In this document: piece after piece, positions 10-24,992 of the stretch
How positions within the stretch are numbered: the stretch's first letter is position 1
How the letters are laid out: every line of letters starts with the position of its first letter
Source: a virus
Length of the DNA: 35,424 nucleotides
IMG/VR virus record: IMGVR_UViG_3300036860_000228
Span: 1 to 35,424 of that record
Direction: 5' to 3' (one strand)
Translations under genes and position numbers: made by a program
Notes under the pieces: generated by a model
Seen by the model: the letters and a program-made list of their open reading frames with translations, nothing else
What the model was told of the DNA's origin: nothing
Databases searched by the model: none

Positions 10-86
10 GCCCAGGTAGCGTCAGTGGAAGATGCGGCCCCTTTGTAAGGGGCAGGTCGGTGGTTCGAATCCATCCCTGGGCTCCA
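10..86 (+). tRNA. tRNA-Thr (anticodon UGU)
   Basis: A complete cloverleaf can be drawn by hand. The acceptor stem pairs 10-16 with 76-82 over 7 bp, the anticodon stem GCCCC/GGGGC carries the 7-base loop TTTGTAA, and the T arm has a normal TTCGAAT loop. The anticodon is TGT, which reads ACA (threonine), and U33 is present. The 3' CCA is encoded at 84-86. Phages often carry tRNAs to support translation of their own late genes, but nothing here shows which genes this one serves. Confidence 0.95.
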
Positions 87-460: not shown

Positions 461-537
461 CAGGGTGTAGCGAAGCCAAGTATCGCGCTCGGTCTGGAAC
501 CGAGAGATCGCTGGAGCGGAGCCAGCCACCCTGACCA
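461..537 (+). tRNA. tRNA-Pro (UGG)-like cloverleaf with abnormal loops
   Basis: All four stems are perfect: acceptor 461-467/527-533, D stem 470-473/483-486, anticodon stem 488-492/500-504 and T stem 510-514/522-526. The 3' ACCA is encoded at 534-537. The anticodon position reads TGG (proline). The C1-G72 pair, discriminator A73 and G35/G36 are those expected of a bacterial tRNA-Pro. It departs from canon in the loops: base 33 is C instead of U, the T loop is AGCGGAG instead of TTCRANY, and the D loop AGCCAAGTA lacks the GG pair. Intact stems argue against simple decay. It may be a working unusual tRNA or a tRNA mimic. Standard tRNA finders may score it low. Confidence 0.6.
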
Positions 538-6465: not shown

Positions 6466-6723
6466 ATGGCACCGAATCCGCACCCTGAAGATCCAACGAT
6501 CCTCCACGGCCCAGCTTCAGGCTGTGCTGCCTGTAATGCCTTGCCTGAGTACCAGAAGATCCGGGTAGCCATCAAGATCGCCTTCACCGGGGAGGAGCCG
6601 AAGGATGGGGGCTGGAGTCCCTGCCCATCGACCCTGATCCACCCCACCTATAAGGAAATGATCGACTCGGCGCGCCATAGGAAGGCCAGCTTCAGTAAGC
6701 GCCGTAAGGGGCTGTGGGGATGA
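6466..6723 (+). CDS. Hypothetical protein with possible zinc site
   Basis: This 85-residue protein starts at ATG 6466 without a recognisable ribosome binding site; a -10-like box lies immediately upstream. Cys20 and Cys23 (CAAC), Cys53 and His59 could form a zinc site. The C-terminus is basic (KRRKGLWG). It is the first gene of a densely coupled run reaching to 9374, with its stop overlapped by the next start. Function is unknown. Confidence 0.65.
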   Translation: MAPNPHPEDPTILHGPASGCAACNALPEYQKIRVAIKIAFTGEEPKDGGWSPCPSTLIHPTYKEMIDSARHRKASFSKRRKGLWG

Positions 6724-7247
6724 GGCGCGTGATGGTCGATATCGAGACCCTGAGCAGCGATCCGACAGCCGTTGTGTTGTCGATTGGGGCCGTGACGTTC
6801 TCGTCAGACCGCGTTACAAATCCCTTCTTTCGGTCGGTCGAGATCTTCTCGTCATTGATGGCCGGCTGCACTATCGATCCCAATACTGTTGAATGGTGGC
6901 GGCAGCAGTCAGATGTAGCGAAGCAGGCGGCTCAGCCGCTCAAGGGTAAGCTGGTGTTGGTCGCGGCTCTCGAGGATCTTGCAGGTTATCTTCAGGGCGC
7001 CGATGAGATCTGGGCGAAGGGCCCGGACTTTGATCTCGTGGTGCTGAGTCAGGCCTACCGGGCAGTTGGGCTGCGCCAGCCCTGGAGTTACCGTTATGCC
7101 AGGGATTGTCGGACCATCTACGCGCTGAGTGGTGTCAAGGAATCAAGAGACGGGCTCAATCATTCAGCTGTTGATGATGCGATCAACCAGGCCCAGGCCG
7201 TCATCAAGGCCTACGAGATCCTCGGGATTTCCATGGATCAGTCATGA
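6720..7247 (+). CDS. DEDDh-type 3'-5' exonuclease (Rv2179c-like)
   Basis: Exonuclease motifs of the DEDDh superfamily can be placed: ExoI Asp7/Glu9 in VDIET, ExoII around Asp103 or Asp105 (GPDFD), and ExoIII His148 plus Asp153 (HSAVDDA). The segment PNTVEWW near residue 55 is typical of the Rv2179c-like phage and bacterial branch. The family removes nucleotides from 3' ends of RNA or DNA using two metal ions. ATG 6720 overlaps the upstream stop (ATGA) and follows AAGGGG; at 175 residues it is of normal length. Whether its substrate is RNA or DNA cannot be told here. Confidence 0.85.
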   Translation: MRRVMVDIETLSSDPTAVVLSIGAVTFSSDRVTNPFFRSVEIFSSLMAGCTIDPNTVEWWRQQSDVAKQAAQPLKGKLVLVAALEDLAGYLQGADEIWAKGPDFDLVVLSQAYRAVGLRQPWSYRYARDCRTIYALSGVKESRDGLNHSAVDDAINQAQAVIKAYEILGISMDQS

Positions 7248-8297: not shown

Positions 8298-8446
8298 AGC
8301 CGATCAAACGGACTCAGAACCGTCGCACCGAGGCCCGCCAGGAGCGCGCGCTCGAGCGCCTGGAGGCTCAGGTAGCGGCCGGCCAGGAGAACGAGCGAGT
8401 CGCCAGTGAGATCGCGACCCTCAAGGCGAAGCTGGGAAAGATATGA
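8294..8446 (+). CDS. Small charged helical protein
   Basis: This 50-residue frame is bounded by ATGA overlaps on both sides. It is an Arg/Lys/Glu-rich helix with heptad spacing (residues 12-48), so probably a short coiled coil. No membrane segment is present. Its role is unknown; it may pair with the Fic protein that follows. Confidence 0.55.
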   Translation: MKPIKRTQNRRTEARQERALERLEAQVAAGQENERVASEIATLKAKLGKI

Positions 8447-9051
8447 GCAAGAAGAAGTCTGGACCACCGATGCACGATCCTAGGGTCGAAGAGATCCTCG
8501 AGACCTACACGGAGCCAGAGCACCGGCCAGAGCCCCATGCTGCCCTGTCGGGTGAGCGCTGGAAGAACGGGCCGCCCCTGCTCGAGCCCGAGCTGATCAT
8601 GAAGCTTGTTCGCTACTGTGCTGACGAGGTGCGGCGCCAGGGCGATGGGCCCGTCAACGTTGCCGACATGTTCGATGCCTGGATGCAGGCCCGCCTTGAC
8701 TGGTATAGCGGCCGCGAGATGACCGTCTTCATGATCGAGACCTGGGGGAAGCTTGTGGAGCCTAACGCCAACAGTGTAGGGTTCCGGCGTCAGCCCATTG
8801 GGCTCGGCGGTCCCCGCGGCTGGCGCCAGATCGGTTGCCAGGCCTGGGAGATCGAGGATCGGCTCAACCAGCTCATCAACATGATCAGGGCGAAGATGAC
8901 GCCGAATGATGCCTACCAATACTTCGAGGAGTCCATCCACCCGTTCCTCGATGGTAACGGCCGCACCGGTAAGATCCTGTTCAACTTCCTCTCCGGTACG
9001 CTCGATGAGCCCATCATGCCCAGGAACAACTGGAACGTATCGAACCCATGA
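8443..9051 (+). CDS. Fic-domain protein (probable NMP/phosphate transferase)
   Basis: The C-terminal third holds the Fic core HPFLDGNGRTGK (residues 166-177): the catalytic His166, the acidic Asp170, and the GNGR anion-binding loop are all present, and the last position is Lys177 where Arg is usual. Fic proteins usually transfer AMP, another NMP or phosphate to hydroxyl groups of target proteins. I find no clear inhibitory S/TxxxEG/N motif. At 202 residues it contains a Fic core plus about 140 N-terminal residues of unknown role. It lies in a coupled gene chain two genes before the large terminase, an unusual place. The target is unknown. Confidence 0.8.
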   Translation: MSKKKSGPPMHDPRVEEILETYTEPEHRPEPHAALSGERWKNGPPLLEPELIMKLVRYCADEVRRQGDGPVNVADMFDAWMQARLDWYSGREMTVFMIETWGKLVEPNANSVGFRRQPIGLGGPRGWRQIGCQAWEIEDRLNQLINMIRAKMTPNDAYQYFEESIHPFLDGNGRTGKILFNFLSGTLDEPIMPRNNWNVSNP

Positions 9052-18345: not shown

Positions 18346-20748
18346 GTGGATCAGGTCGAACGGTTCAGTATCTCGGGAGACGCGGTTGCGTCTGCTATGG
18401 AGATTGTGGGCGGTCAAATGCCCATGCAGGACTCCAAGAAGAAGCCGGGAGAACTGTCGGCCGGAGATCTCGCGTGGCGGACCCGTAAGTGGTTCATCGA
18501 AGCCTTCACGCACCCCATGTGGAAGCGCTACTGTAAGGAAGCTGAAGAGGATGAAGGCTTCTACATTGGTGGCGAACTACAGTGGAGCAACGAGGGTAGC
18601 CAGGAAGACCTGAACCGCCTGAAGGCTGGTAACCGGACGGTCGTGAGCCTGAACCACATTGCGCCGCTCGTCGATGTGCTGGTGGGGTTCGAGCGTCAGA
18701 ACCAGTACGATCTGAAGGCTCTGCCGATGGGGCAGCAGGACAGTGACGCTGATGATGCCCAGATCATGTCATGGCTCCTGAAGTTTCACCAGGATCAGAC
18801 GGAGTGCCAGGAGACACAGTCCGAGATGTTTCAGGACGGTATCATCCGTGGCGCCGGTGCTGCTGAGATTGCAGTCGATTGGTCCGAGGATCCTGTCAAT
18901 GGCGACATCAAGATCAACAAGCTGAAGCCTGGTAAGGACTGTCTCTGGGATCCGTTCTGGCAGAAGTACGACCTGTCGGATGCCCGCTTCTTCATCCGCT
19001 ATAAGTTTGCATTCCTGGACGATCTGCTGTCGCTGTATCCGGATAAGGAAGAGGAAATCCTGGCGGCCGTCACGAGCCTCGAAGCTCATCTCGGTATGGC
19101 GATGGCCGACAATATGACGACGCAGGGTCGGCCAGAAGATCCATATGGCCGTACCAATGCTGCCCATCAGGAGCGCAGTGCCAACGAGCTTGAGTTCTAC
19201 GATCCGCTCGGACGCCGCATCCTTGTGCTGGAAATCTGGTATCGGGTCAACGAGCGGATCTATGTGGCAGTCAATCGGGTGACCGGCGAGACTCGTACGG
19301 CAGAGCAGCGGATGGAGCTGGATGAGCTGAAGAAATCCGATCCGGATCGTTGGAAGATCATGGAGCGTAATCGTCGCCGCATCATGATGGGGGTGGTGCT
19401 GCCCGCGACTCTCCAGACTCTCGAGGAAGGCCCGAGCCCTTATGAGAACGATAAGGAGAACTACCCGTTCGTCGCCTACATCGCCAAGAAGTTCGGTGAC
19501 CATATGTACGGGCTGGTGCGGAACCTGAAGGATCCTCAGCGTATCGAGAACAAGAAGATGTCGAACGCGCTGGATATTGCCCAGCGTTTCGGGTCGATGC
19601 GTCCGATGGCTGCTGTGGGATCTCTCGATGATCCCAGGACGCTCGAGGATGCAGCCGATACCTCGACGGTCTTTTACGACGCGAAGAAGGGGCCAGCTCC
19701 TAGCTATTTGGTGCCGCCGCTCGAGCAGGCGATTAGGCCGCTTACGGAGCTGGGTCAGCTGCTCGGTGAGAACGCCGTCAAGACTGTCTCGGGCATCAAC
19801 GCGGATCTGCTGGGTCAGAAGGCCGACGATACTTCCGGTATCGCCATCGCGCGTCGTCAGGCTCAGGGCCAGACCATCGCGACCATCTACTTCGACAATC
19901 TGAAGCGTACTCGCAAGATCATCGGGCAGCGCTTGGCCCGCCGGATTCAACAGGTGACGCCAACTGACAAGGTCATTCGGCTGACTGATCAGAAGACCGG
20001 CCGGCCCCGCATCATCACGATCAACCCGCGGGAGGCCAAGGATCTGAACGGTACGGCCTATGAAGCCTGGCTGGCTAAGCAGGAAGACGAGCGACGCCCT
20101 TATGTGCTGCGAGACATCTCGAGTCTCAAGTATGACATCGGCATTTCGGACGCGCCCAGCACTCCGACGGCCCGCAGTACTGCTCTGCTGGCGCTCATCG
20201 AGATCGGTCGAACGGCTCCCGAGCTGGTCCACCTCATGATGGACTATATGGTGCAGTTGGCCGATATCCCAGATCGTCACGAGCTGTTGGCTCGCGTGCG
20301 GCAGGCCATGCACCTGGATGAAAAGGGCATGCCGTTGCCGCCGCCGCCGATTCAGCCGCCTCAGCCGAAGGTTAGCGTCAATATCAAGGGCGACGTCGAT
20401 CCTTCGGTCGCGAAGGACTTGGCGAGTGGCAAGCCGATTCCGGATGGTCCACCGATGCCTGACATGGGTGGTGGTCCGGGGAAAGTCGGGAAACCTGCGG
20501 CCACCCCAAAGCCTGCCGGTCCACCGGCCGCTGGCCCAGGCGCCGGTCCTATCGTTCCTCTGAGGCCTGGGAAGATCGGGCAGGCTACGAAGCCTGGTCA
20601 GCCAGGTGTCTCGGCTGGTCTTGCTCCGGAGACGCCGGCCGTCCCGGTGCCGACAGGCGTCGCGAGGAATCCCGGCTCTTCGGCCAATACGAAAGTGATG
20701 CCGCAGATTGCTGCACAAGCTCTCGGTAACGCAGAACCTGGTCCGTAA
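18346..20748 (+). CDS. Portal protein, P22-like
   Basis: The portal is the ring at one capsid vertex through which DNA is packaged and ejected. At 800 residues it fits the large P22-type portals, and its N-terminal part (RKWFIEAFTHPMWKRYCKEA, then NHIAPLVDVLVGFERQN) matches their style. The middle region has GADxxLxDPFW-like KDCLWDPFWQKYDLSD, then TVSGINADLLGQ and IARRQAQG. The last 140 residues are Pro/Gly-rich and probably disordered. The GTG start follows GGAGG at good spacing directly after the previous stop. Identification by eye is firm on context and style. Confidence 0.85.
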   Translation: MDQVERFSISGDAVASAMEIVGGQMPMQDSKKKPGELSAGDLAWRTRKWFIEAFTHPMWKRYCKEAEEDEGFYIGGELQWSNEGSQEDLNRLKAGNRTVVSLNHIAPLVDVLVGFERQNQYDLKALPMGQQDSDADDAQIMSWLLKFHQDQTECQETQSEMFQDGIIRGAGAAEIAVDWSEDPVNGDIKINKLKPGKDCLWDPFWQKYDLSDARFFIRYKFAFLDDLLSLYPDKEEEILAAVTSLEAHLGMAMADNMTTQGRPEDPYGRTNAAHQERSANELEFYDPLGRRILVLEIWYRVNERIYVAVNRVTGETRTAEQRMELDELKKSDPDRWKIMERNRRRIMMGVVLPATLQTLEEGPSPYENDKENYPFVAYIAKKFGDHMYGLVRNLKDPQRIENKKMSNALDIAQRFGSMRPMAAVGSLDDPRTLEDAADTSTVFYDAKKGPAPSYLVPPLEQAIRPLTELGQLLGENAVKTVSGINADLLGQKADDTSGIAIARRQAQGQTIATIYFDNLKRTRKIIGQRLARRIQQVTPTDKVIRLTDQKTGRPRIITINPREAKDLNGTAYEAWLAKQEDERRPYVLRDISSLKYDIGISDAPSTPTARSTALLALIEIGRTAPELVHLMMDYMVQLADIPDRHELLARVRQAMHLDEKGMPLPPPPIQPPQPKVSVNIKGDVDPSVAKDLASGKPIPDGPPMPDMGGGPGKVGKPAATPKPAGPPAAGPGAGPIVPLRPGKIGQATKPGQPGVSAGLAPETPAVPVPTGVARNPGSSANTKVMPQIAAQALGNAEPGP

Positions 20749-23957: not shown

Positions 23958-24992
23958 ATGAAGCTCATCGCCAAGCTGTTCGGACTGGTGCTCGGTTTCC
24001 CCGCCATCATGGGTGGTGCCGACACGTCGTTCGCCACGGGCGCCACCGAAACGGTGAAGCGCTGGGCCGCTCGCCTGTGGGTGGAGCTGCCTCGGGAAAT
24101 CTACTTCGGAAAGTTCATGCGTGAAGATGACATGAACACGATCATCGAGGTGAAGCGCGACCTCGAGGGTCAGCCCGGAGACAAGGTTACATTCACGCTG
24201 CTCCAGAAGCTGGGCAACGCGGCCGTGACCGGCGATTCCACGCTGGAAGGCAACGAAGAGGCTATGCAGTTCTATTCCGATGCCGCGACCCTCGACCAGA
24301 ACCGTAACGCGGTTCGTCTGTCGGGCCGCATGTCGGAGCGCCGCACCGCCTTCAACCAGCGTGATTCCGCGAAGACGCTGTTGAAGACGTGGCTTGCCGA
24401 GACCATCGACAACGCCATCTTCACCGGTATGGACCTGGCGCCGACGACCGTTCTGTTCGGTGGTGCTGCGTCGTCCGAGGCTACTCTCGACAGCACGTCG
24501 AAGATCACGCCGTCGCTCATCGACAGGGCCGTGGCCAAGGCCAAGAAGATTCTGCCGAAGATCTGGCCGGTGCGTGTGAATGGCCGCGACTTCTATGTCG
24601 TGCTGCTTCACACCGACGTCGCCTATGACCTTCGTCAGGACGGCGTCTGGAACCAGGCGCAGCGCGAGGCTCAGGAGCGCAGTCCGGACAACCCGATCTT
24701 CAGCGGCGCCCTCGGCTTCTGGAACGGGACGCTGGTCCACGAGCACGAGAAGATCCCGATCTTCACGAACGGTGGTGTCGGCGGTAACCAGCCGGGCGCC
24801 CACAACTACTTTATGGGGCGCCAGGCCGGTATCTTCGCGTGGGGTGCGCGCCCGGAGTGGTGGGAGAAGGAGTTCGACTACGGCAACAAAGTCGGCTTCG
24901 CCATCGGCGCGATCTACGCCTTCAAGAAGGCGGTCTTCAACGCGAACGACCACGCCTTCATCCGCCTGACCACGTACCGGACCAACAACTAG
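23958..24992 (+). CDS. Major capsid protein, N4-gp56 type, with hydrophobic leader
   Basis: The region starting near residue 19 (TSFATGATETVKRWAARLW, then LPREIYFGKFM) and the later NPIFSGALGFWNGTLVHEH and EFDYGNKVGFAIGAIYAFKKA match the N4-gp56 capsid family, which forms the HK97-fold shell. Length (344) is typical. The strong AAGGAG site fits ATG 23958, which adds a hydrophobic, lysine-led N-terminus of about 20 residues (MKLIAKLFGLVLGFPAIMGG) not usual for this family. ATG 24009, where family members would normally begin, has no ribosome binding site. There are no cysteines. The leader may be cleaved, may act in assembly, or may be a signal peptide. Confidence 0.9.
   Translation: MKLIAKLFGLVLGFPAIMGGADTSFATGATETVKRWAARLWVELPREIYFGKFMREDDMNTIIEVKRDLEGQPGDKVTFTLLQKLGNAAVTGDSTLEGNEEAMQFYSDAATLDQNRNAVRLSGRMSERRTAFNQRDSAKTLLKTWLAETIDNAIFTGMDLAPTTVLFGGAASSEATLDSTSKITPSLIDRAVAKAKKILPKIWPVRVNGRDFYVVLLHTDVAYDLRQDGVWNQAQREAQERSPDNPIFSGALGFWNGTLVHEHEKIPIFTNGGVGGNQPGAHNYFMGRQAGIFAWGARPEWWEKEFDYGNKVGFAIGAIYAFKKAVFNANDHAFIRLTTYRTNN

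Follow-up and report, generated by a model that had tools for sequence, protein, structure and literature searches.

In a large set of phage tRNAs, the near-universal elbow contact between G18 of the D loop and U55 of the T loop is replaced in step by A18-G55, a change that is both compensatory and systematic. Across all loci, we identified 187 swapped tRNAs in 52 loci, representing 20 isotypes. The same swap is found in a tRNA-Pro(UGG) gene with an encoded CCA that occupies positions 461..537, on the plus strand, of the window, that is, the entire analyzed stretch of DNA, a linear 35,424-base IMG/VR virus record.

The window tRNA-Pro was called by ARAGORN, as tRNA-Pro(TGG), at exactly 461-537. 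Its 5' half parses as CAGGGTG TA GCGA AGCCAAGTA TCGC G CTCGG TCTGGAA CCGAG and its 3' half as AGATC GCTGG AGCGGAG CCAGC CACCCTG ACCA, a canonical tRNA shape with 7/4/5/5 stems, standard pairs throughout (21/21) and an ACCA end; the RNA folds into a cloverleaf at -31.8 kcal/mol (z -2.4). The proline identity elements C1-G72, A73, anticodon NGG and G15-C48 are all present, in agreement with the first-pass annotation, which had described fully paired stems and retained identity bases. This cloverleaf is not due to chance: 30 windows simulated to match the real one in dinucleotide composition contained no short-variable-loop cloverleafs with 21/21 pairs, compared to two, both tRNAs, in the real window. 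Under the Rfam tRNA model (RF00005), 461-537 remained below reporting in both cmscan and the family search and did not reach the gathering cut-off.

It is the loops that depart from the canonical pattern. The D loop AGCCAAGTA (474..482, plus strand) reads A14 G15 C16 C17 A17a A18 G19 U20 A21, with A18 instead of G18 and with G19 retained; the anticodon loop TCTGGAA (493..499, plus strand) contains the anticodon UGG at 495-497, C33 replacing U33, and A37; and the T loop AGCGGAG (515..521, plus strand) consists of A54, G55, C56, G57, G58, A59 and G60. Thus, in place of the G18-G19, U55-C56 and U33 of a canonical tRNA, this gene has A18 G19, G55 C56 and C33, and the combination of A18 G19 and G55 C56 within an intact cloverleaf is the hallmark of the A18-G55 family. 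When aligned to the nearest phage relatives, U8, A14, G15, G19, A21, C48, G53-C61, C56, G57 and A59 are retained; because both G19 and C56 are among these, the G19-C56 elbow pair can still form. The first-pass annotation was therefore right about C33, the T loop AGCGGAG and the missing GG, except that the D loop lacks only G18; its conclusion that a normal elbow is precluded holds for the 18-55 contact, which is altered on both sides, but not for G19-C56, which is intact.

The only other tRNA in the window is a canonical tRNA-Thr(UGU) at 10..86 on the plus strand (ARAGORN TGT; 53.5 bits with the Rfam tRNA model), which is unswapped, with GG in the D loop and the T loop TTCGAAT. With one swapped and one canonical tRNA, both at the left end, the swap is not genome-wide in this virus. 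The window also encodes a portal (18346-20748) and a major head protein (23958-24992), and the head genes share about 33-36% protein identity with their nearest annotated relatives, which come from phages of Ochrobactrum, Paracoccus, Agrobacterium and Burkholderia. The approximately 370 bases between the two tRNAs (87-460) are 65-72% GC, show non-coding codon statistics on both strands and contain many hairpins, such as GGTACGC-GTTGAGA-GCGTACC; this segment had no Rfam match and a fold z-score of only -1.15, and could be a separate structured RNA. Elsewhere in the window, we noted a Fic/Doc domain protein (8443-9051; PF02661, 6.6e-06), some Doc proteins being known to target EF-Tu, a component of the tRNA pathway, and an Rv2179c-like 3'-5' exoribonuclease (6714-7247; PF16473, 6.8e-38).

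A blastn search of the window tRNA region against phages produced no match at 1e-5, and relaxed blastn in phages retrieved ordinary tRNA-Pro genes, each matching part of 461-537. In the canonical tRNA-Pro of G049 and Ruegeria phage V10, the acceptor CAGGGTG/CACCCTGACCA is identical to that of the window gene; in that of virus Rctr197k, the D stem and variable loop are identical, the D loop being AGCCTGGTA; the ordinary tRNA-Pro of Tunturi_5 shares the T stem; and A37 is common among canonical phage-encoded tRNA-Pro. All these canonical genes (G049, V10, Rctr197k) have G18-G19 and U55 where the window tRNA-Pro has A18 and G55. The stem differences from the canonical phage tRNA-Pro all preserve pairing, and the loop changes are 17a U->A, G18->A, U33->C, U54->A, U55->G, A58->G and U60->G. 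No close relative of the window gene itself was found in the phage searches. A model built on both tRNAs of the window, run against 50 records, found a tRNA-Pro in G049 only, and this one is canonical; the capsid relatives G001, G003, G007 and G009 lack such a tRNA gene; and the neighboring 200-aa protein (899-1498) has no relatives that we could find. Exact-motif scans with the T arm, or with the anticodon loop and T loop, returned only coding coincidences as judged by cloverleaf parsing.

Scans with free loops revealed the coupling between positions 18 and 55. A scan of viral contigs anchored in the acceptor (CAGGGTGTAG N50-62 CACCCTGACCA) recovered 84 tRNA-Pro, exactly three of which have G55, and exactly the same three have A18 G19 (T loops AGCGAAG in L204, TGCGAGT in L222 and TGCGACT in L241). 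Conversely, anchoring in G55 and leaving the D loop free yielded 67 tRNA-Pro genes that form cloverleafs, and A18 G19 is present in nearly all of them; the D loop of the swapped tRNA-Pro in L209 is AGCCAAGTA, the same nine bases as in the window. When all collected viral loci were scanned for cloverleafs irrespective of loop sequence, 820 distinct tRNA-like ones were obtained, including 575 with U55 and GG and 173 with G55 and AG; another 14 combine G55 with GG in the D loop, but most of these read AGG and are still compatible with A18-G19. In the loci that were not selected for G55 (the acceptor-anchored and U55-anchored sets, about 18 contigs), A18 is present in 34 of the 35 G55 tRNAs and GG in 839 of the 845 U55 tRNAs (Fisher p 4e-58 over these roughly 18 contigs, with shared ancestry ignored by the test). 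One-sided intermediates, G18 with G55 or A18 with U55, are rare among phage tRNAs. A search for compensatory changes, as the first-pass annotation had proposed, thus found 18 and 55 altered together, from G-U to A-G, in 187 phage tRNAs, and the stems of these relatives are unbroken, which speaks against simple decay. The suggested reverse pairing of CC in the D loop with GG in the T loop has to be abandoned: positions 16, 17 and 58 differ among the relatives with no corresponding changes, whereas 18 and 55 co-vary.

In three phage tRNA clusters, with the genes located using Rfam's own tRNA model, the replacement is essentially complete (L318, 13/13; L265, 12/12; L316, 15/16), and in L321, 10 of the 15 tRNAs are swapped; in many phages, canonical and swapped tRNAs occur side by side. 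The swapped tRNAs retain the features of their isotypes, namely, G3·U70 in tRNA-Ala (14/14), C73 in tRNA-His (6/6), U73 in tRNA-Cys (7/7), A73 (43/43) and C1-G72 (41/43) in tRNA-Pro, and the long arm in tRNA-Ser; CCA is encoded in 172 of the 187, and the Levitt 15-48 pairing is retained. Such conservation points to tRNAs that serve in translation and acquired the swap isotype by isotype. The nearest canonical tRNA belongs to the same isotype for 66% of the swapped tRNAs, compared to 59% of the canonical ones and 8% by chance, and on this basis, together with the isotype features, a single common origin followed by anticodon change was rejected. Among the neighbors of these genes are proteins with Ro60/TROVE and vWA domains, encoded inside two swapped-tRNA clusters (L265:6605-8056, minus strand; L287:12191-13912, plus strand); Ro60 is associated with Y RNAs, which are tRNA-like, and with RNA repair. 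Related ATP-dependent ligases, with a DNA ligase-type OB domain and a weak RNA ligase match, are encoded near three swapped-tRNA clusters (L271:2005-2919, plus; L288:1133-2044, minus; L177:9299-10444, minus).

Other loop changes are more frequent among the swapped tRNAs. Bases other than U54/A58 are present in 69 of the 187 swapped tRNAs compared to 53 of the 575 canonical phage tRNAs (9%), with AGCGAAG as a recurrent T-loop type among the former, and C33 is also more common in the swapped set (30/187 vs 40/575, about 7%; p 4e-4). The family pattern at 54-58 is U-A, A-A, G-G or A-U; the A54/G58 of the window gene falls outside that pattern, and among the swapped tRNAs, both G58 and the A54/G58 pair are unique to it. 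Because G58 and C33 exceed the family pattern and no close relative was found, this copy could be partly degenerate. C33 also occurs in tRNA-Pro(GGG) with the anticodon loop TCGGGAA and otherwise canonical loops (L149, Phaeobacter phage MD18; L205, L217, L228, L233). Furthermore, the tRNA-Pro of L148 (Ruegeria phage V10), L163 and L195 have the T loop ATCGTGA, with A54 and U58, while keeping G18/U55, so that the 54-58 contact varies independently.

In the samples searched, which included two bacterial phyla, the A18-G55 tRNAs are restricted to phages. Our bacterial sampling covered 594 genomes from two phyla, each searched with one or two patterns. The G55 proline pattern gave two matches in 395 Pseudomonadota genomes, neither of them a cloverleaf and hence no true match, and none in 199 Bacillota genomes, whereas its U55 twin matched in 14 of 59 bacterial genomes; with a general pattern (A73, short D loop), the swapped version was found in 0 of 148 and the canonical version in 11 of 20 bacterial genomes. 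An origin of the swap by inheritance from the hosts was rejected, with no such tRNA in these 594 genomes of two phyla. The cultured Erythrobacter phage XM05 carries two swapped tRNA-Val among canonical tRNAs; we considered and dropped the notion that annotators had overlooked these two genes in particular because that stretch has no annotated tRNA at all.

Taken with a moderate degree of confidence, the window tRNA-Pro(UGG) appears to be a working elongator with a rewired elbow that may spare it from host elbow-reading enzymes. The gene would be transcribed, and its product processed, aminoacylated by ProRS and employed by ribosomes in translation. In the folded molecule, A18 and G55 would touch as an alternative pair that takes the place of G18-pseudouridine55, with G19-C56 retained, and the intraloop 54-58 contact would be A-G in place of U-A. 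The elbow of tRNA is normally marked by TruB, TrmA and TrmH, which make pseudouridine 55, m5U54 and Gm18, respectively. Given G55, A54 and A18, none of these marks can be formed in the window tRNA-Pro, which hence must be stable without them and would be poorly recognized by proteins that rely on them. We are less sure why the swap is kept: possibly, because the atoms of G18, U54 and U55 that are read by host proteins are absent, so that the tRNA would evade proteins such as TrmH, TrmA and TruB or T-loop-cutting nucleases, whether encoded by the host or by a phage, and the phage would keep a usable tRNA pool when that of the host is cleaved or undermodified. T-loop nucleases exist, such as the CdiA-CT E479 tRNase that cuts between T and pseudouridine (PMC9086364), and phage tRNAs evade anticodon nucleases through anticodon-loop changes (PMC10264068) and rescue phages from tRNA-depleting defenses (PMC11555353), which makes escape from elbow-reading enzymes the leading, albeit unproven, purpose of the swap; no elbow-reading nuclease was identified in either host or phage, and none was found beside the swapped-tRNA clusters. 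More tentatively, some phages may have had their entire tRNA set, every isotype included, re-engineered at the elbow, resulting in a private pool, marked by its elbow, on which phage genes could be translated and which would lack the bases targeted by the elbow-reading modification enzymes and nucleases of the host.

Alternatively, A18-G55 might be just another geometrically acceptable elbow pair, reached by drift and compensation and unrelated to defense or modification. The co-occurrence of swapped and canonical tRNAs in many phages, with only two swapped genes among the canonical ones in XM05, and the apparently relaxed tRNA rules in phages generally, as seen in the C33 and 54-58 variation of their canonical tRNAs, are compatible with such a scenario; we nevertheless regard it as rather unlikely, given that complete multi-isotype replacement in single clusters with isotype features kept would be hard to reach by drift, that one-sided intermediates are rare, and that none of the 594 bacterial genomes has the swap. 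Improbable, too, is a form of self-marking, whereby a phage-made or phage-activated nuclease would destroy host tRNAs via the standard elbow and spare the swapped set. The wholly swapped phages are what self/non-self marking requires, T-loop tRNases exist (PMC9086364), and Ro60/TROVE RNA-binding proteins are encoded in two loci; however, no such nuclease turned up beside the clusters, and in the window and most of the other loci, which are mixed, the canonical phage tRNAs would be destroyed as well. Still less credible is a decaying pseudogene acquired together with the neighboring tRNA-Thr: C33 and G58 are odd even within the family and the Rfam model does not report the gene, but the 21/21 pairs, identity bases and CCA are intact, and the loop changes match the paired pattern of the family. 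The tRNA mimic with another job contemplated in the first-pass annotation (a synthetase decoy, nuclease sponge or regulatory RNA) is the least likely of these readings, despite the loss of the usual U-turn base to C33 and the GC-rich, non-coding 370 nt lying 5' of the gene, because the swapped relatives span all 20 isotypes with the identity features and anticodons that translation tRNAs would show.

Several known systems resemble the proposed rewired elongator in part. Like the phage tRNAs that escape anticodon nucleases (PMC10264068), the window tRNA-Pro keeps its stems and has loops unlike those of the host, including C33 in the anticodon loop, but unlike in those tRNAs, the changes are mainly in the elbow, at 18, 54, 55, 58 and 60. 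Resistance to host tRNA-cutting defenses, as put forward in the first-pass annotation, may nevertheless apply to the window gene. Eukaryotic initiator tRNA and tRNA-Ala(AGC) have A54-A58 and purine 60 (PMC7566577), so that A54, purine 58 and purine 60 represent the same 54-58 solution as AGCGAAG and AGCGGAG, although no 18-55 change is reported for them. G18 and U55 (pseudouridine) have been called universally conserved in tRNA (PMC4810234, PMC7912444). A search of the open-access full-text literature yielded no account of A18/G55 tRNAs in phages, and this set apparently has not been described so far. Staphylococcal cell-wall tRNA-Gly is, like the swapped phage tRNAs, functional and charged, with the elbow bases replaced, but unlike the phage set, it is a single bacterial isotype with weak EF-Tu binding, and it is not known to carry a paired A18-G55 swap.

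Standard-elbow tRNA finders undercount the swapped genes, with ARAGORN recovering 142 of the 187 swapped tRNAs compared to 571 of the 575 canonical ones. The phage-wide and isotype-wide paired replacement indicates that the translation machinery can work with a different elbow and suggests strong selection in phages, and the A18-G55 swap makes the question of why phages carry tRNAs testable.
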